Shown: piece after piece, positions 36,849 to 45,823 of the stretch
Numbering within the stretch: position 1 is the first letter of the stretch
How the letters are laid out: every line of letters starts with the position of its first letter
Origin: Achromobacter insuavis
GTDB taxonomy: Bacteria > Pseudomonadota > Gammaproteobacteria > Burkholderiales > Burkholderiaceae_B
Length of the DNA stretch: 64,000 nucleotides
NCBI RefSeq assembly: GCF_902859645.1
Contig: NZ_CADIJR010000023.1
Location: forward strand, 1 to 64,000
Direction of reading: 5' to 3'
Program-made: the position numbers and the translations under genes
The notes under the pieces: model-generated
Database searches by the model: none
Told to the model about the DNA's origin: nothing
Seen by the model: only the letters and a program-made list of their open reading frames with translations

Positions 36849-39800
36849 TCAATACACATCGCGCACATAGCGCTTGTCCGCGGTCATGCGCGCCACGTAG
36901 GCCGCCGCCGCGTCGGCATCCATGCCGCCGTGTTCCCGCACCACCTGCCTGAGCATGGCGTCTACGTCGCGGGCCATCTGTCCTGCATCGCCGCAGACAT
37001 AGAAATGGGCGCCCTCCTGCAGCCACGCCCAGAGCCGCGCGCCGTGCTCGCGCATGCGGTCCTGCACGTAGATCTTGGCGGCCTGGTCGCGCGAGAACGC
37101 CAGGTCCAGCCGCGTCAGCAGGCCGTCGTCGCGCAGCGCCTGCAGTTCGTCGCGATAGTAGAAATCGCTGGCCGCGTGCCGCTCGCCGAAGAACAGCCAG
37201 TTGCGGCCGCCATCGCCGCGCGCCCGCCGCTCTTGCAGGAAGGCGCGGAACGGCGCCACGCCGGTGCCGGGGCCGACCATGATCATCGGCGTGTCGCCCT
37301 GCCGTGGCGGCCGGAAGTGGCTGGCCTCCTGCACGAAGACCGGCACGTCGGCGTCGCTCGCGCGGTCGGCCAGGAAGGTCGACGAGACGCCCTTGCGCTG
37401 GCGCCGGCCATTGTCGTAGCGCACCGCGGACACCGTCAGGTGGACCTGGCCGGGATGCGCCTTGGGGCTGGAGGCGATGGAGTACAGACGCGGTTGCAGG
37501 CGCTTGAGCGCGCCCAGCCACGCCTGCGCCGGCAGCACCGCCGGAAACGCGTGCAGCACGTCGGCCAGCTGCTTGCCCCACAGCCATTGCCGCAGGTCCG
37601 CGCGGCGTTCCTCGGCCAGCAATTGCCGCAGGCCGGGATCGCGGGTGTGTTCCGCGATCAGCGCCAGCGTGGCCGGCGCGGGGCGCGCGATTTCGTAATG
37701 CGTGGACAGCGCCCGGGCCAGCGGCATGTCGCCGACGCCCGGCACGCTGGCCACCGCGTCGCCTGACAGGCCGGCCTGCGCCAGCAGTTCCTCCACCAGC
37801 TCGGGGCAGTTCACCGGCCAGACGCCCAGCGCGTCGCCGGCCTGGTAGTCCAACCCGGTGCCGGCGATGTCCAGCGCCAGCGCGCGCGTGTCCTTGTCGC
37901 CGCTGGCGTTCAGCCGCTGGTTGCCGATCAGGCGCGCGGGCGCCGGGCGCGTCCGGGAGGGCGGCGCCGGGCGCGCGCCGATGGGCGGGGCGGCAGGTTC
38001 GGGCGGCGCGGCGGGGGCCGCCCTGCCGGACGGGGCGTCGGCAGTCAGCGCCGCCGCGATGTCGTCAGGCATCAGGCCGCCGGCCGGATGGCCATGCTGT
38101 TCGGCGTTGGCCGCATGGATGCCGGCGATGGCGCTTTCCAGCCAGGCGTCGGCCGGCGCCTCGTAGTCGGTGTCGCAATCGACCCGCGCCAGCAAGGGCC
38201 GCGCGCCCAGCTGCGCCAGCCGCTGGTCGAGCCGGCGGCCGTGGCCGCAGAAGGCGTCATAGTTGCTGTCGCCCAGCGCCAGCACCGCATAGCGCAGCGA
38301 CGCCAGCCGCGGCGCGTCGGCGGCCGACAGCGCGCGCCACAGGTCCTGGCCGTTGTCCGGCGCGTCGCCGTCGCCGAAGGTGCTGGTGATCAGCAACAGG
38401 TACTGGGCGCGCGCCAGGGCGTCGAGCGTGCAGTCCGCCATGCAGGCGGTGCGCAGCTCGAAACCGGCCGCGGCCAGCGCGGTGGCGCTGCGTTCCACCA
38501 GCGATTCGGCATTACCGGTCTGCGAGGCCCACAGCAGCGTCACGCGCGGGCGCGGGCCGATGATGCGGACGGTGGCCTCCGCCGCGTCGGTGGCAGGCGT
38601 GGTCGCTGGCGCCAACGGCCGCGGCGCGCGGCTGTACAGGCCATGCAGCAGGCCGTTGAGCCACAGGCGGGTGGCTTCGTCGAAAGGCGCGTGGACGGGC
38701 AGCTCCGGAATGCCGGGAGCGCCGCCGGCCTGCCGCAAGCCGTTGAGAAAACCCGACAGGTAGTGGCGCTGGCGCGCATCCAGCGCGGGCGGTTCCGCGC
38801 CGCTCGTCAGGCCGAGTAGCGCGGCCATGGCCTCGGCGGGGGCGGCGCCGCTGGCCGACACGGCGACGGGCTGCAGGGCCGGGCCGGTCTCCAGGTTCCC
38901 GACCGCTGTCAACGCCGGGGCCGCGTGTGCCGCGGCCAGGCCGGCAACATTGTCGGCCGCCATTTCCGTCATGGCCAACGTGGCCGGCGCTACGGCGCGC
39001 GTCGCCCTGCCGGCAGGCGCCGCGACGCGGCACAGCGCCACCGCGCAGAACTTCAGCTCGGGCTGCTGCGACACCGGATCGATGGCGTCGCTGGTGACGG
39101 CGTTGATGCACAGATCGTCGCCATACACGTCGTTCCAGTGCATGGGGGCGAAGCAGTTGCCGGGCCGCACCCGGTCGGTGACGACGGCGGGCAGCACCGC
39201 GCGGCCGCGGCGCGAACGGATCTCAACGTTGTCGCCGGCAGCGATGCCGAGCGCTGTCGCGTCATCGGGGTGGATCTCCACGAACGGCGCGGGGTTGAGT
39301 TTGTTCAGCATCGGCACCTTGCCGGTCTTGGTCAGCGTGTGCCATTGGTGCTGCAGCCGCCCGGTGTTGAGCACCATGGGATAGTCGGCGTCGGGCAGCT
39401 CGGCCGGATCGGCGTGCGGCCGCGCGTGGAACTGCGCGCGGCCGTTGGCGGTGGCGAATGCCAGGCGCGGCCGCGCGCCATCGTCCTCTTCGCGCCACGG
39501 CTGGCTGACGCCGTCGTTGAGATAGCGGATCGGATTGCGCTCGGGGCCGTCGGCGCGCGCACAGGGCCATTGCAGCGGCGTCTCGCGCAATCGCGCATGG
39601 CTGGCGCCGCGCAGGTCGTAGCCGGTGGCGGGGTTGGAAAAACCGGCGATCTCCTCGAACACCTCGGCCGCGCTGGCGTACTGGAACGCGTGGCCGTAGC
39701 CCATCTCGCAGGCCACGCCGGCGATGATGCGCCAGTCGGGCAGCGCGTCGCCGGGCGGCGGCACGGCCCGCGGCATCAGCGTCAGGGTGCGTTCGGAATT

Positions 39801-41177
39801 GATCATCACGCCGTCGGCCTCGGCCCATAGCGCGCCGGGCAGCAGGATGTCGGCGTAGCGGTTGGTCTCGGTGTCCAGGTAGGCGTCCTGCGCGATCACC
39901 AGTTCCGCCGCGCGCAGCCCGGCCACCACATTGGCGCGGTTGGCGACGCTGGCCACCGGGTTGGTGCAGATGATCCAGCAGGCCTTGACCTCGCCCGCCG
40001 CCATGCGCTGGAACAGGTCGATGGTGCCTTGCCCCAGCCGCGTATGCAGCGTGCCGGCGGGCACGCCCCAGCGCGCTTCGACAAAGGCGCGGTCGGCGGC
40101 CGACAGCACGCTGCGCTGGCCCGGCAGGCCGGGGCCCATGTAGCCCATCTCGCGTCCGCCCATCGCGTTGGGCTGGCCGGTCAGCGAGAACGGCCCGCTG
40201 CCCGGCCGGCAGATGCGGCCGGTGGCCAGGTGCAGGTTGCACAGCGCGTTGGTGTTCCAGGTGCCGTGGGTGCTCTGGTTCAGCCCCATGGTCCAGCAGC
40301 TCATCCATTCCGGCGCCGCGCCGATCCAGTCGGCGGCCTGGCGCAGTTGCGCGGCGGCAATGCCGGTCAGCGCCTCGACCCGCTCGGGCGCGTAGTCGCG
40401 CAGCAAGTCCGGCATGGCCTCCCAGCCGTCGGTGTGCGCGGCGATGAAGGCCGCGTCGGTCTTGCCGGCCCCATGCAGCAGATGCAGCAGGCCGTTGAGC
40501 AGCGCCAGGTCGGTGCCCGGCTTGATCGCCAGGTGCAGATGCGCCTTCTCGGCGGTGGTGGTGCGGCGCGGATCGACCACGATCAGGCGGGCGCCGGCCT
40601 TGACCCGGTCCATCATGCGCAGGTACAGGATCGGATGGCAGTCGGCCATGTTGGCGCCGATCACCAGGAACAGGTCGGCGCGGTCGATGTCCTGGTACGA
40701 GCCGGGCGGGCCGTCGGCGCCCAGCGACAGCTTGTAGCCGCTGCCGGCGCTGGCCATGCACAGGCGCGAATTCGATTCGATGTTGTTGGTGCCGATGAAG
40801 CCCTTGGCCAGCTTGTTGGCCAGGTACTGGGCCTCGATCGACATCTGTCCCGACACGTACAGCGATACCGCGTCGGGGCCGTGCGCGTCGATGATGGCGC
40901 GCAGCCGCCCGGCGGTGTCGCGCAGGGTGTTCGCCATCGGCCGCGGCGCCAGGTCCTGGCCGCGCCGGTCGCGCACGTAGGCGTGCTCCAGCCGACCCGA
41001 CTGGCGCAGGGCAAGGTGGGCCGACGACCCCTTGGTGCAGAGACGGCCGAAGTTGCTGGGATGCTCGCGGTTGCCGGTGATCTTCACCACCTGCTCCCGT
41101 TCCACGTGCAGGGTCATGCCGCAGCCCACGCCGCAGTAGGGGCAGACGGTGTCCACGGTGCGCTGGCTGCCGCTCAT
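36849..41177 (-). CDS. assimilatory nitrate reductase fused to CysJ-like flavoprotein reductase
   Basis: A 1442-residue natural fusion. Residues 1-700 are a bis-MGD nitrate reductase with a [4Fe-4S] site (Cys12, Cys15, Cys19, Cys47 in [10 protein letters not shown] and GRLCTKG) and [18 protein letters not shown]. Residues 700-860 are a linker. From about 870 comes a flavodoxin domain ([19 protein letters not shown]), from about 1075 the FAD-binding domain ([10 protein letters not shown]), and from about 1290 the NADPH site ([21 protein letters not shown]). Electrons would pass NADPH-FAD-FMN-FeS-Mo to reduce nitrate to nitrite in the cytoplasm. It is divergent from nirBD, which finishes reduction to ammonium. 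The 156-codon upstream extension is rejected because it spans the leader and promoter. Confidence 0.95.
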
Positions 41178-41185
41178 GCTCGGTT

Positions 41186-41239
41186 CCCAAAAAAGAAAGC
41201 GCCCTGCCTGCGCGGCCAGCGGCCGGGCGGGCAGGGCGC
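41186..41239 (-). terminator. leader terminator of the nitrate reductase transcript
   Basis: Read on the minus strand, GCGCCCTGCC and GGCAGGGCGC form a perfect 10-bp stem, followed by TTTCTTTTTT. It ends only about 10 bases before the nitrate reductase start codon at 41177, so it must be overridden for expression. It is the expected target of ANTAR-protein antitermination (NasR, encoded at 44555). Confidence 0.8.
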
Positions 41240-41249
41240 CATTGCCCTG
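41232..41249 (-). promoter_or_regulatory. candidate ANTAR antiterminator hairpin
   Basis: On the minus strand CAGGGC-AATGGC-GCCCTG gives a perfect 6-bp stem with a hexaloop whose first base is A and fourth is G, the rule for ANTAR-protein targets. Its 3' arm is the left arm of the terminator, so the two structures exclude each other. Confidence 0.6.
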
Positions 41250-41286
41250 GTTGGTTCCCGGCGTGGCCGGGTCGATACCCTGTCGA

Positions 41287-41302
41287 TGCAAGTTCCATGC
41301 CA
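41287..41302 (-). promoter_or_regulatory. sigma-54 promoter of the nitrate reductase gene
   Basis: On the minus strand TGGCATG-GAAC-TTGCA matches the sigma-54 consensus TGGCACG-N4-TTGCA with one mismatch; the -24 GG and -12 GC are kept. Transcription would begin near 41275, giving a leader of about 97 bases that contains the terminator. Confidence 0.75.
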
Positions 41303-41364
41303 ATCGGCCGCCGCCGGTGGACCGCGCCGCACGCGGACCGGCGGCGCGCGCGGTGGTGCGTGGC

Positions 41365-41381
41365 TGCACCGCCGTGGTGCG
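41365..41381. promoter_or_regulatory. NtrC-type enhancer site
   Basis: TGCACC-GCCGT-GGTGCG matches the NtrC consensus TGCACC-N5-GGTGCA at 11 of 12 positions. Its centre (41373) lies about 72 bp from the -24 element of each divergent sigma-54 promoter. A weaker partial site occurs at 41386-41402. Confidence 0.7.
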
Positions 41382-41444
41382 CCGCCGACCCGTTTGGGTG
41401 CGCGGCGGCATGGGTGGCGGGCCGCCGCGCGGGCGGCATCGCGA

Positions 41445-41460
41445 TGGCACGCTTATTGCT
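41445..41460 (+). promoter_or_regulatory. sigma-54 promoter of nirBD-nasR
   Basis: TGGCACG-CTTA-TTGCT is a perfect match to the sigma-54 consensus TGGCACG-N4-TTGCW. Transcription would start near 41470, leaving a leader of about 115 bases ahead of the nirB ATG at 41587. Confidence 0.85.
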
Positions 41461-41512
41461 TTGATAGCCATACCGGGCCCGTGTCCGGCCAGACAACGCA
41501 AGCTTTGCAGGC

Positions 41513-41554
41513 AACGGCGCCCGGACCCACCAGTCCCGGGCGCCGTTTGTCTTT
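41513..41554 (+). terminator. leader terminator of nirB
   Basis: AACGGCGCCCGG (41513-41524) and CCGGGCGCCGTT (41536-41547) form a perfect 12-bp stem with an 11-nt loop, followed by TGTCTTTT. It lies between the sigma-54 promoter and nirB. Overlapping its left arm, GGC-AACGGC-GCC (41510-41521) could form the alternative ANTAR-type hexaloop with A1 and G4, though with only 3 bp before a mismatch. Confidence 0.85.
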
Positions 41555-41586
41555 TGAAAACCGAACGGCCCAGCCTGGATAGCCCC

Positions 41587-44139
41587 ATGAGCACAGCGAC
41601 CTCCACGACTCCCATGCAGACCCTGATCGTCATCGGCAACGGCATGGTCGGCCATCACTGCGTCGAGCAACTGATCGAGCGCGGCGCGCTGGCGCGCTAC
41701 CGCATCCTGGTGTTCGGCGAAGAGACCCGGCGCGCCTACGATCGCGTGCACCTGTCCGAATACATCGGCGGCCGCGATGCCGAATCGATGGCCATGAGCG
41801 ACGCCGCGTTCTATGAGCGGCCAGGCCTGTCGCTGCGGCTGGGCGAGCCGGTGCTGCGCATCGACCGCCACGCGCGACAGGTGGTGACGGCCGCCGGCAG
41901 CCATGGCTACGACAAGCTGGTGCTGGCCACCGGCTCCTATCCCTTCGTGCCGCCGATCGCCGGCGCCGAAGGGGCCTCGCGCCTGGTGTACCGCACGCTC
42001 GATGACCTGGACCAGATCCGCGCGGCGGCCGACGGCGCCCGGCGCGGCGTGGTGGTGGGCGGCGGCCTGCTGGGCCTGGAGGCGGCCAATGCGCTCAAGT
42101 CGCTCGGGCTGGAGGCGCACGTGGTCGAGTTCGCGCCGCGCCTGATGCCGGTGCAGCTGGACGAGGCCGGCGGCGGCGCGCTCAGGGCGCGCATCGAGGC
42201 GCTGGGCGTGGGCGTGCACCTGTCGCGCGCCACGCAGGAAATCAAGGATGGCACGCAGTACCGCTACCGCATGCGTTTTGCCGAGGGCGCGCCGCTGGAA
42301 ACCGACCTGATCGTGTTCTCGGCCGGCATCCGGCCGCGCGACGGCCTGGCGCGCCAGGCCGGACTGACGGTGGCCGAGCGCGGCGGCGTGGCCGTCGACG
42401 GCCATTGCCGCAGCAGCGATGCGTCGATCTACGCGATCGGCGAATGCGCCGCGTTCGACGGCGCCATCTTCGGCCTGGTGGCGCCCGGCTACCAGATGGC
42501 GCGCGTGGCCGCCGCCGAGCTCTGTGGCGACGACAGCGCGCCGTTCGCCGGCGCCGACATGTCGACCAAGCTCAAGCTGCTGGGCGTGGACGTCGGTTCG
42601 ATCGGCGATGCCCATGGCGCCACGCCCGGCGCGCGCAGCTACCGCTACATCGACGAGGCGGGCGCCTCGTACCGCCGCCTGGTGGTGTCGGCCGACGGCA
42701 AGCGCGTCCTGGGCGCGGTGCTGGTGGGCGACAACAGCTACTACGACACGCTGCTGCAATACGCGCAGAACGGCATCGCGCCGCCGGCCGACCCGGCCAG
42801 CCTGATCCTGCCCGCCGGCCAGGCCGCGCCCGCGCTGGGCGCCGGCGCGCTGCCGGCCACCGCCACCATCTGTTCGTGCCACAACGTCAGCAAGGCCGCC
42901 ATCTGCGACGCGCTCGACGGCGGCTGCACCGACGTCGGCGGCGTCAAGGCCTGCACCAAGGCCGCCACCGGCTGCGGCGGCTGCGCGGCCCTGCTCAAGC
43001 AGGTGGTGGAACACGAACTGGCGAGCCGCGGCGTCGCGGTGGACAAGAGCCTGTGCGAGCACTTTCCCTACACCCGCCAGGAGCTCTATTCGATCGTCCG
43101 GGTGCAGGGCATCGAATCGTTCGAAGAACTGCTGGCGCGCCACGGCCGCGGCCATGTCGGCTGCGATCTCTGCAAGCCGACGGTGGCGTCGATCCTGGCG
43201 TCGTGCTGGAACCGCCCGATCCAGGATCCGAATCGGGTGCCGCTGCAGGACACCAACGACACCTTCATGGCCAACATGCAGAAGAACGGCACCTATTCGG
43301 TGGTGCCGCGCATCCCGGGCGGCGAGGTCACGCCCGACGGCCTGATCGCGATCGGCGCCGTGGCCAAGAAGTACCAGCTCTACACCAAGATCACCGGCGG
43401 CCAGCGCATCGACCTGTTCGGCGCGCAACTGCACGAGTTGCCCGACATCTGGGCCGAGCTGATCGCCGCCGGCTTCGAGACCGGCCACGCCTACGGCAAG
43501 TCCACCCGCACCGTGAAGTCCTGCGTCGGCAGCACCTGGTGCCGCTACGGCGTGCAGGACAGCGTCGCCATGGCGCTGCGCATCGAAGACCGCTACAAGG
43601 GCCTGCGCGCGCCGCACAAGCTCAAGTTCGCGGTCTCGGGCTGCACCCGCGAATGCGCCGAGGCGCAGAGCAAGGACATCGGCGTCATCGCCACCGAGAA
43701 CGGCTGGAACCTGTACGTGTGCGGCAACGGCGGCATGCGCCCGCGCCACGCCGAACTGTTCGCCCAGGACCTGGACGATGCCACGCTGATCCGCTACATC
43801 GACCGCCTGCTGATGTTCTACATCCGCACCGCCGACAAGCTGCAACGCACCTCGGTCTGGCGCGAATCGCTGGAAGGCGGCCTGGACTACCTGAAGGCCG
43901 TGGTCATCGACGACAGCCTGGGGCTGGGCGCCGAACTGGAGGCGCAGATGCAGCTGGTGGTGGACCGCTATGAATGCGAATGGGCCAACGCCCTGTCCGA
44001 CCCGGAAAAGCTCAAGCGTTTCCGCACCTTCGTCAACAGCGCCGCCGCGGATCCGGACATCCGCTTCGTGCAGGAGCGCGGCCAGCCGCGGCCCGCGCCC
44101 GCCGCGCGCGTGATTCCCATCGCCGAGGAGCTTGCCTGA
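41587..44139 (+). CDS. nirB: NADH-dependent nitrite reductase large subunit
   Basis: An 850-residue sirohaem nitrite reductase subunit that reduces nitrite to ammonium in the cytoplasm. Domains in order: FAD/NAD(P)-binding pyridine nucleotide-disulfide oxidoreductase ([30 protein letters not shown]), a Bfd-like [2Fe-2S] domain ([12 protein letters not shown] with ATGCGGC), then the ferredoxin-like and sirohaem/[4Fe-4S] domain with cysteines in [11 protein letters not shown] (about 644) and [14 protein letters not shown] (about 684). All cluster ligands are present. It is first in a nirB-nirD-nasR operon and overlaps nirD by one base. Control by a sigma-54 promoter and leader terminator is predicted. 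Confidence 0.97.
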
Positions 44140-44543
44140 TGCGCTCGAATGTCGTGATCGCCCTGCGCCAGGAGGCGCCATTCAATGCCCGGCCCGGCGC
44201 CGAGGCGTGGCAGCCTGTCTGCACCCGCCGCGACCTGGTCGCCGATTCCGGCGTGGTGGCGCTGGTCGATGGCCGCCAGGTGGCCCTGTTCTACTTGCCG
44301 GCGGTGGCCGGCGAAACGCTCTACGCCATCGACAACCGCGACCCGAAGTCGGGCGCCAACGTGATCGGCCGCGGCATCGTCGGCCACCTGGCCGGCGAGC
44401 TGGTGGTGGCCTCGCCGCTGTACAAGCAGCACTTCCGGCTGCGCGATGGCGTCTGTGTCGAGTATCCCGAGCAATCGCTGCGGGCCTGGCCGGTGCGCTT
44501 CAACGGCGACGCGGTGGAAGTCCAGCCGCCCGCCGCGGCCTGA
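44139..44543 (+). CDS. nirD: nitrite reductase small subunit
   Basis: A 134-residue Rieske-fold small subunit of NADH-nitrite reductase. Key blocks are WQPVCTRRDLVADSGVVALVDGRQVALFYLP and ETLYAIDNRDPKSGANVIGRGIVG. As in other NirD proteins, the Cys/His ligands of a true Rieske cluster are missing, so it is structural rather than electron-carrying. Its start codon overlaps the nirB stop (TGATG), ensuring coupled translation. NasR follows 11 bp later. Confidence 0.95.
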   Translation: MRSNVVIALRQEAPFNARPGAEAWQPVCTRRDLVADSGVVALVDGRQVALFYLPAVAGETLYAIDNRDPKSGANVIGRGIVGHLAGELVVASPLYKQHFRLRDGVCVEYPEQSLRAWPVRFNGDAVEVQPPAAA

Positions 44544-44554
44544 GGATCGTCGCC

Positions 44555-45823
44555 ATGTCGCAGCACGCCATGCCCTCGACCCTGCGTTTCCTCCTGGCGG
44601 CCCGCCGCAGCGAGCTGCACGGACTCGAAGCGTTGGCCAGCACCTGTGAGCTGGCCACCCTGGTCAGCAAGCTGGTGCACGTGCTGCAGAAGGAGCGCGG
44701 TTCGTCCAACCTGTATCTGTGCGGCGGCCAGGACGCGCTGCGCCAGACCCTGGCCGGCCTGAGCTCCGACGCCTGCGCGGTCGAGGAGGAAGTGCGCCGC
44801 TTCCTCGACCGGCTGGAACCGGATGCCACCCGCAGCGCCGGCAAGGCGCGGCTGCTCAACTGCATCGCCTACGCGCTGTACCGCCTGGACGAGCTGCCGC
44901 GCACGCGCCGCGCCATCCGTGACCGCCGCGTGGCGGCGGAAGAGGCCGGCGCGGTCTTCACGCGGCTCATCGCCAGCCTGTTCGCGCTGGTGTTCGAAGC
45001 CGCCGACTCGTCGCTCGACGCGGGCGTCACGCGGCTGCTGGTGGCGCTGCTCAATTTCATGCAGGGCAAGGAGCTGTGCGGACAGGAACGCGCCTATGGC
45101 GTCATGGGCTACACCGCCGGCTATTTCACCGAAGCGCAGAAGGCCCGCGTGCTGGAGCTGGCGGATCTGCAGAAGCGCTGCTTCGACAGCTTCGCGCAGT
45201 ACGCCGGCGCGGATGCGCTGGCCGCGTGGGAGCGGCTGGAGCAGAGCGCCGGCCCGGTGCTGCGGCTGCGCGACATGGCGCTGCGGACCTCCGAGGCCGA
45301 ACGCGTCGACGCCGGTCTGGCCGAGCTGTGGTTCGGCCTGTGCACCGAGCGCATCGATGCCATGCGCGCGGTCGAAAGCCTGCTGGCCGAGGCCCTGACG
45401 CTGCAATGCCATCGCCGCATCGTCGAGACCCGCGCCGAGCTCGACAACCACCGGCTGCTGCTGAGCCGTTTCGCCGACCGCGCCGGCGACGACGCGCCGG
45501 CGATGCTGTTCCAGCTGCAGGGCCGCATTCTCGACGTGCCGCCGCAGGACGGCGTGGGCGAGGCCATGGAGCGGTCCATCCTCGACCTGATGCGCGATCA
45601 GGCGCAGCGCCTGCGCCAGTCGGACGACGCGCTGGCGCTGGCGCGCGGCGCGCTGGAGGAACGGCGGCGGGTCGAGCGCGCCAAGTGGCTGCTGGTCAGC
45701 CGCCACGGCCTGAGCGAGCAGGCCGCGCACGACCAATTGCAGCGGGTGGCCATGGACTGCCGGCGTTCGCTCGACGAGGTCGCCCGGCAGGTGCTGGCCG
45801 AACTCGATACCGCGGCGCGCTGA
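44555..45823 (+). CDS. nasR: nitrate-responsive antiterminator NasR (NIT-ANTAR)
   Basis: A 422-residue protein with an N-terminal NIT (nitrate/nitrite-sensing, all-helical) domain and a C-terminal ANTAR RNA-binding domain at about 345-420 (ALEERRRVERAKWLLVSRHGLSEQAAHDQLQRVAMDCRRSLDEVA). The NIT start has LVSKLVHVLQKERGSSNLYL, the helix that carries the conserved Arg. In Klebsiella, NasR binds nitrate and stabilises an antiterminator in the nasF leader. Here it is the third gene of the nirB operon. Two leaders in the divergent gap have terminators with overlapping ANTAR-like hairpins, so it probably controls both operons, including its own. Confidence 0.9.
   Translation: MSQHAMPSTLRFLLAARRSELHGLEALASTCELATLVSKLVHVLQKERGSSNLYLCGGQDALRQTLAGLSSDACAVEEEVRRFLDRLEPDATRSAGKARLLNCIAYALYRLDELPRTRRAIRDRRVAAEEAGAVFTRLIASLFALVFEAADSSLDAGVTRLLVALLNFMQGKELCGQERAYGVMGYTAGYFTEAQKARVLELADLQKRCFDSFAQYAGADALAAWERLEQSAGPVLRLRDMALRTSEAERVDAGLAELWFGLCTERIDAMRAVESLLAEALTLQCHRRIVETRAELDNHRLLLSRFADRAGDDAPAMLFQLQGRILDVPPQDGVGEAMERSILDLMRDQAQRLRQSDDALALARGALEERRRVERAKWLLVSRHGLSEQAAHDQLQRVAMDCRRSLDEVARQVLAELDTAAR

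Follow-up and report, generated by a model that had tools for sequence, protein, structure and literature searches.

Putative ANTAR attenuators with one recognisable hexaloop in the divergent nasA and nirB leaders of Achromobacter

Results

Gene content and promoters of the nasA-nirB region

The DNA analysed here, hereafter the window, is a stretch of 64,000 nucleotides from an Achromobacter genome near A. dolens and A. ruhlandii, whose NasR proteins are 97 and 96% identical to that of the window. On the minus strand, nasA (36849..41177) encodes a fusion protein that, according to Pfam, joins a molybdopterin oxidoreductase (nitrate reductase type) to flavodoxin and FAD/NAD domains; through this fusion, a single chain may pass electrons from NAD(P)H to nitrate. 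On the plus strand lie nirB (41587..44139, Pfam), nirD (44139..44543), which was named from its position and translated sequence and has tblastn matches after nirB in relatives, and nasR (44555..45823), assigned by Pfam as a NIT-ANTAR regulator, with 4AKK as the best match among solved structures. NasR carries a NIT domain (residues 39-281, 156.2 bits) followed by an ANTAR domain (residues 364-414, 62.0 bits), both above the Pfam cut-off and in the order required of the NasR class. Since nasR starts 11 nt downstream of the nirD end, it is likely to be co-transcribed with nirBD. At another Achromobacter locus (L013, 6597-9956), nirD and nasR are separated by genes for a formate/nitrite transporter, a phosphatase-kinase fusion and a tetrapyrrole methylase. 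The window's genome encodes two further ANTAR proteins (L002, L003), each adjoining an AmiC-like protein; named from their sequence, they look like AmiR. Throughout, "family" means the GTDB family of the window, with Achromobacter, Bordetella and their relatives as named members.

A sigma54-type promoter pattern precedes each leader, TGGCACG-N4-TTGC for nirB (41445..41459, plus strand) and TGGCATG-N4-TTGC for nasA (41288..41302, minus strand), the latter element being visible in five relatives as well. These promoters are the only two matches to TGGCAYG-N4-TTGC in the 64 kb, where 0.28 were expected, and a looser sigma54 pattern was present in 44/46 distinct nirB leaders. We take a GG at -24 and a GC at -12 with fixed spacing to be the sigma54 (RpoN) consensus, by which, as a pattern only, the leader promoters were assigned. 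Between both promoters lies TGCACCGCCGTGGTGC (41365..41380, plus strand), a single pattern match in the window for what, from its consensus, is presumably an NtrC-like enhancer site. This match is weak alone, as at least one was found in 23 of 100 shuffles; similar GCACC-N5-RGTGC sequences were seen by eye at L004, L005, L006, L008 and L021.

Terminators and competing hexaloop hairpins

The original prediction was that each leader holds a strong intrinsic terminator whose left arm overlaps a nearly identical 13-nt element. Exact matches were found for both elements, GGCAACGGCGCCC at 41510-41522 (plus strand) and GGCAATGGCGCCC at 41234-41246 (minus strand), and they were the sole matches in the window to the pattern GGCAAYGGCGCCC (0.05 expected). 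Folding yielded a strong terminator in each leader, the left arm overlapping the element as foreseen: for nirB, a hairpin (41513-41547) followed by a U-rich tract (41513..41555 in all, plus strand), with -26.3 kcal/mol for a stretch of 45 nt; for nasA, a hairpin (41199-41239) and a U tract (41189..41239 in all, minus strand), with -38.7 kcal/mol for a stretch of 60 nt that includes a small extra tail hairpin. Neither terminator was found by a simple terminator scan within its loop and T-run limits.

The same elements can fold into a hairpin, hereafter P2, whose AAYGGC hexaloop has A at position 1 and G at position 4 (A1/G4), in line with the ANTAR rule invoked by the prediction. The P2 of nirB is GGC-[AACGGC]-GCC (41510..41521, plus strand; A1 = 41513, G4 = 41516) and that of nasA is CAGGGC-[AATGGC]-GCCCTG (41232..41249, minus strand; A1 = 41243, G4 = 41240). 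As had been claimed, the nasA hairpin is perfect, with a 6-bp stem (-10.3 kcal/mol when folded alone), whereas the nirB hairpin is weak, with three pairs (-2.8 kcal/mol). In both leaders the left terminator arm is shared with P2, so P2 formation would exclude the terminator, as the prediction also held. The 13-mer by itself was rejected as evidence: the genome as a whole contains 63 copies of its 12-mer core GGCAANGGCGCC and 14 of the reversed pattern. Given how often this GC-rich genome contains the 12-mer, context and comparison have to carry the case; the special features are the terminator overlap, the promoter and the conservation, not the 12-mer core alone.

Conservation and covariation of P2 and the terminator

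The nirB start regions of 55 loci were compared (identity at least 70%, start present), 27 other nirB-matching loci being set aside as too distant or cut. GGCAA.GGC was present in 54 of the 55, the exception (L024) being cut by a contig end. The 54 regions collapse to 46 distinct leaders, which were aligned, and in all of these GCC follows GGCAA.GGC. Twelve further leaders (L155-L162, L183-L185, L199) were picked by GGCAA.GGCGCC, the first 46 having been picked by GGCAA.GGC; L198 (genome G091), looked at in the same way as the added twelve, contained no GGCAA.GGCGCC. Over the resulting 58 distinct leaders, GGCAA-N-GGCGCC varies at loop position 3 only (A 33, T 16, C 9). Within the set of 46, this position is paired with the right arm of the terminator in 40 leaders (A-U 27, C-G 8, U-G 5) and unpaired in six. 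In a cross-family set assembled with no stem filter, 78 AA.G loops lie on a terminator and follow a sigma54 element, and 75 of them can form each of the three inner stem pairs. At the second pair, G-C occurs in 49 and A-U in 26, giving 75 paired cases against a shuffle maximum of 64. The remaining three loops, without the stem, seem to be misregistered or chance hits. The nasA P2 (6 bp, AATGGC) is identical in the eight distinct nasA leaders fetched, with a ninth, in G031, seen as a pattern match only. A GAC/GTC-type P2 pattern matched in 2/43 Achromobacter genomes, neither match being leader-like.

The invariance of the loop, the pairing of its third position and the compensatory change in the stem together suggest that antiterminator and terminator both appear to be under selection, the sequences compared being related and the counts not independent. 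The comparison of leaders proposed along with the original prediction thus supported P2 as a hairpin, through the stem, and the competing terminator, through loop position 3. Both leaders show what is expected of the P2 of an ANTAR target, namely an A1/G4 hexaloop hairpin and an overlap with an intrinsic terminator, and we assign them with high confidence as candidate ANTAR attenuators with P2 as antiterminator.

The recognition loop of the first hairpin is missing in relatives too

In the original prediction, the usual first ANTAR hairpin (P1) had gone unrecognised in either leader and was thought to be perhaps a variant. This proved apt, as the recognition loop is missing in relatives too and was not overlooked. 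No A1/G4 P1 was found near P2 in the window leaders. With a stem of at least 5 bp, an A1/G4 P1 hexaloop was absent from 57/58 nirB leaders and, with at least 3 bp, from all eight nasA leaders fetched. Allowing any closing pair, the 58 nirB leaders contained four A1/G4 hexaloops at 3 bp or more (7.5 expected from shuffles) and two at 4 bp or more (2.7 expected). When 46 leaders were scanned to 200 nt upstream, P1 was found in three (L068, the window and L021; 0.92 expected), the P1-like matches of the window and L021 being more than 130 nt away and upstream of the promoter. In the comparison set, canonical P1 was present in 21 of 39 elements (at least 4 bp, 0.5 expected). These 39 include five from one divergent genus of the window's family (L074, L075, L076, L081), and among the 54 own-family elements, four (L022, L085, L086, L091) are weak and lie well away from nirB or nasA. 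Two own-family elements scored as P1-positive: L068, with a good P1, and L069, where it is 55 nt away and probably due to chance. P1 is present in the Thioalkalivibrio leaders. In many dual-loop leaders (L035-L049 of Thioalkalivibrio, L165-L181 linked to NasT) P1 and P2 seem to be separated by an additional hairpin, which, across a long linker, may draw the two loops close to each other.

A hairpin without the recognition loop, and by its loop not a P1, precedes P2 by 17-24 nt in the 46 nirB leaders and by 7 nt in the window's nasA leader; PMC8164766 gives 2-25 nt for the linker between two ANTAR-target hairpins. In the nirB leader of the window it occupies 41473..41488 (plus strand), and in the nasA leader it is CCCGGC-[CAC]-GCCGGG (41257..41271, minus strand). 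In nirB leaders the stem of this hairpin varies between species and its loop is unconserved: at the P1 position of the 46 nirB leaders there are many different stems, with a tetraloop in 35 (GCAA in 16) and an A1/G4 hexaloop in L068 only. As a group of related sequences these 5' hairpins exceed shuffles (sum of 678.9 versus a maximum of 561.3 in 200 shuffles); singly, the fraction of shuffles reaching the sequence runs from 0.00 to 0.83, which is weak for many and convincing not in every one. RNAalifold did not draw the 5' hairpin on the 46-leader alignment, in which MAFFT leaves it unaligned. As its loop differs between species (CAC, GCT, CGT, AAC), the nasA 5' hairpin was rejected as a P1. 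In the nirB leader, a spacer block (41489..41509, plus strand; consensus ACAAC..GWGCA from the alignment and column counts over 58 leaders) separates the 5' hairpin from P2. This spacer is conserved across genera and the sequence of the 5' hairpin is not; the block is absent from the nasA leaders inspected. The spacer was rejected as a hidden P1, given that inspection by eye showed no stem shared across genera and that the hexaloop counts are not above shuffles.

Covariance models and Rfam

A dual-hairpin model was built from 16 NasT-linked leaders of the window's family and run on 53 sources; 18 NasT loci had been fetched, of which L178 and L180 contributed none because no element was seen there. 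Neither window leader was listed at E 10 or less. Held-out elements with P1 (L113, L034, L115, L110, L187, L106, L200, L041, L116) scored 18.7-27.7 bits, and the best apparent chance match reached 18.4 bits (L161). The reach of the model is limited, with only 11-18 bits for L103 (8820-8877), L050, L033 and L035, and L068 unlisted; as it misses other P1-bearing elements, this test alone is weak. The search with an ANTAR-RNA model that had been proposed for the window therefore left its two leaders unlisted under a model of limited reach, and found an nrtABC leader elsewhere in the genome. At L103 938-996 (minus strand), away from the element given by the scan, the model also scored 25.3 bits, perhaps marking a second leader.

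Rfam gave no window match at the gathering score. The narK RNA (RF03032) scored 14.9 bits on the window against a threshold of 43.2, and P11 (RF00625) was not among the window's matches. The printed consensus of RF03032 and that of RF00625, "Pseudomonas sRNA P11", both have a sigma54-like promoter and then an A1/G4 P2 element, and the narK RNA consensus also shows a P1, CC-AACGGC-GG. Judged by these consensus sequences, both families look like nitrate ANTAR attenuators.

Association of the leaders with NasR and NasT

Regulators were called at E 1e-20 or less for NasR and 1e-35 or less for NasT; searching the window's genome at the latter threshold gave no NasT. In the window's family, a nirB of at least 77% identity is present in 60 genomes, and NasR or NasT in 58 of these. 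In the two others neither was found: G033 (57% complete), where the nirB leader is present, and G091 (77% complete), where the promoter pattern is kept and P2 is gone (L198). Among genomes with a 60-63%-type nirB and neither NasR nor NasT found, the element was detected in 0/9 within about 500 bases around the start. P1 and P2 are both present in two genomes with NasT and a nirB of this type, G192 and G193; G188 (NasT, 63% nirB) has no element directly before nirB, which closely follows another gene (L186).

Across 43 Achromobacter genomes, NasT was found in 24 and NasR in 32 (both in 14, NasT only in 10, NasR only in 18, neither found in one), and mutual exclusion of the two was therefore rejected. 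The P1-less nirB leader is kept in all nine NasT-only Achromobacter genomes that have this nirB (G001, G005, G010, G015, G016, G019, G030, G041 and G042; the tenth, G025, is without it). Because they persist in NasT-only genomes, the nirB leaders are not specific to NasR: either NasT uses P2 alone too, or the spacer acts, or NasR was recently lost. Besides NasR, the nirB leader probably has at least one other potential reader.

In the ANTAR domain of the window's NasR, the conserved AK is directly followed by Trp378. Among 106 aligned sequences this residue is W in 28, L in 19, R in 8, H in 4, Q in 1, A in 22, G in 19 and T in 3, with two gaps; it is bulky in most NasR of the window's family and A or G in most other NIT-ANTAR proteins. 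Under a looser P1 rule, P1 was scored in 27/65 elements of loci with a NasR lacking W, versus 1/28 with W (L063, which looks spurious). We treat this as a lead only, since the division between bulky and small residues tracks phylogeny and P1 is present in L068, whose residue is Q.

An nrtABC leader elsewhere in the genome

The NasT-leader covariance model gave one strong match (49.7 bits) in the window's genome, located before genes for a binding protein (NMT1_2), a permease and an ATPase, for which we use the name nrtABC. This leader is probably at least a third member of the regulon. In all nine Achromobacter NasT loci fetched (L165-L171, L176, L181, out of 24 NasT-bearing Achromobacter genomes), the P1 loop of the orthologous nrtABC leader keeps A1 and G4. 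Conversely, in all three NasR-only genomes where an nrtABC leader was found, the P1 stem is kept and A1 and G4 are lost, the P1 loops being GCGCGC (the window's), GCGCGC (G011) and GCGAGC (G040) and the P2 loop AACGAC being unchanged. The six-base loop of G040 is our own call, where the model aligns eight bases with two broken pairs. The three losses are in close relatives and may represent one event. No strong nrtABC-type leader match was obtained in NasR-only G008 and G012 (22.5 and 22.7 bits), so this target is not general. In the window's genome, three leaders were thus seen, with one recognisable loop each. In the fetched NasT loci, nasT adjoins an nrtA-type gene; in the window and near relatives, nasR adjoins nirBD.

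These observations bear on the original prediction that one NIT-ANTAR protein controls two divergent operons, including its own gene. The two divergent attenuators and the position of nasR beside nirBD agree with it. NasR as the sole reader does not fit the leaders of the NasT-only genomes, and a regulon of two operons is probably too small given nrtABC.

Discussion

The switch proposed here is of a known kind, the variation being one recognition loop instead of two. The nasF leader of Klebsiella oxytoca has a sigma54/Ntr promoter, as the window leaders appear to have, and nirBD of P. aeruginosa is under NasT antitermination. In K. oxytoca, as in the window, a NIT-ANTAR protein and a C:G-closed A1/G4 hexaloop at the terminator foot are associated with nitrate assimilation genes (PMC7496416). 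There, however, P1 and P2 are both needed for full affinity, NasR binding at about 1 μM with P1 and P2 versus 12 μM with P2 alone, that is, about 12-fold more weakly (PMC7496416), whereas in the window's genome P1 has no recognition loop and three separate operons are concerned. Targets of the EutV type share the overlap of P2 with the terminator and the A1/G4 rule (PMC3369931, PMC8934654), but both loops and their spacing are essential in EutV targets, both hairpins being described as such in PMC3369931, while the leaders described here have one loop only. In the NasS-NasT system, an ANTAR protein released by nitrate acts on nas leaders (PMC3795266), and sister species of the window carry NasT together with leaders having P1 and P2 before nrtA-type genes; NasT is a REC-ANTAR protein, unlike the NIT-ANTAR protein NasR. 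An accepted ANTAR target consists of two A1/G4 hexaloops (PMC8164766; PMC3369931 describes both hairpins likewise), and the target searches of PMC3369931 and PMC8164766 use dual-hairpin models. The 2022 structure paper (PMC8934654) asks what makes two hairpins necessary if the dimer binds a single one. In the literature on ANTAR, NasR, Achromobacter, nrtA, narK and P11, as represented by titles and abstract openings with few subscription journals, we found no description of these leaders or of P1-less ANTAR targets.

We consider it likely that both leaders are nitrate-dependent ANTAR attenuators that use P2 alone, with NasR as reader. Evidence for this comes from sequence, pattern promoters, folded terminators, conservation, covariation of P2 and terminator, and association with ANTAR genes; from it we infer binding, nitrate response, read-through, start sites and the sufficiency of P2 alone. 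Under nitrogen limitation, transcription would start from the sigma54 promoter, probably with NtrC. When nitrate and nitrite are absent, the leader transcript would end at the intrinsic terminator. In the presence of either, the ANTAR domain of NasR would bind the C:G-closed P2 hexaloop through A1 and G4, and the bound P2 would take the left arm of the terminator, allowing transcription into nasA or into nirBD-nasR, the latter providing positive feedback on nasR. The hairpin at the place of P1 would be a structural element only, there being no second A1/G4 hexaloop upstream. The nrtABC leader would be a third such leader in the same genome, and NasT would replace NasR in some sister species. 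Against a P2-only reading stand the need of EutV for both hairpins, the weaker binding of P2 alone in K. oxytoca, the 3-bp nirB P2 and the unexplained spacer block. The conserved spacer might supply what P1 does elsewhere.

The spacer also figures in the idea that these are dual-site targets in which P1 is disguised, for instance through the ACAAC..GWGCA block or a loop that is not a hexaloop, with two sites still being bound. Conservation of the spacer across genera, where the 5' hairpin is variable, speaks for it, as does the position of that hairpin, 17-24 nt before P2 in 46 leaders, where L068 has a true A1/G4 P1. We nevertheless find it unlikely: A1/G4 hexaloops are no commoner than in shuffles (4/58 and 2/58), no spacer stem was seen by eye across genera, and the nasA leaders inspected do without the spacer. 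A far more sceptical reading, in which ordinary terminators with a conserved GC-rich arm are under other control or none, can draw on the frequency of the 12-mer in the genome and the weakness of the nirB P2, but it is very improbable in view of a loop invariant except at position 3, the compensatory change in the P2 stem and the absence of the element where neither regulator was found.

A different history, compatible with P2-only attenuation by NasR, is that NasT, or either ANTAR protein, shaped the nirB leader and that NasR took over when NasT was lost. The distribution of the regulators (NasT in 24/43 and NasR in 32/43 Achromobacter genomes) and the leaders of the nine NasT-only genomes make this conceivable, although we lean against it: nrtABC leaders in NasT genomes keep a full P1, which suggests that NasT maintains P1 at its own targets, and nasR is the neighbour of nirBD, nasT that of an nrtA-type gene. 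Returning to NasR as the reader of P2 alone, we tentatively put forward, as plausible if not quite probable, that a branch of NasR proteins antiterminates from a single hexaloop, the P1 loop being kept only by NasT and lost with NasT even in the orthologous nrtABC leader. This change may be coupled to the bulky ANTAR residue after AK (W, L, R, H or Q, versus small A or G in most relatives with P1).

Searches that require two loops can miss real targets; our own model, whose reach is limited, left both window leaders unlisted. A clade in which three operons of a single genome have lost one loop, and in which close relatives retain that loop in one of these operons, would make the two-hairpin question directly testable, and the leaders described here may serve as natural tests of why two loops were thought essential.
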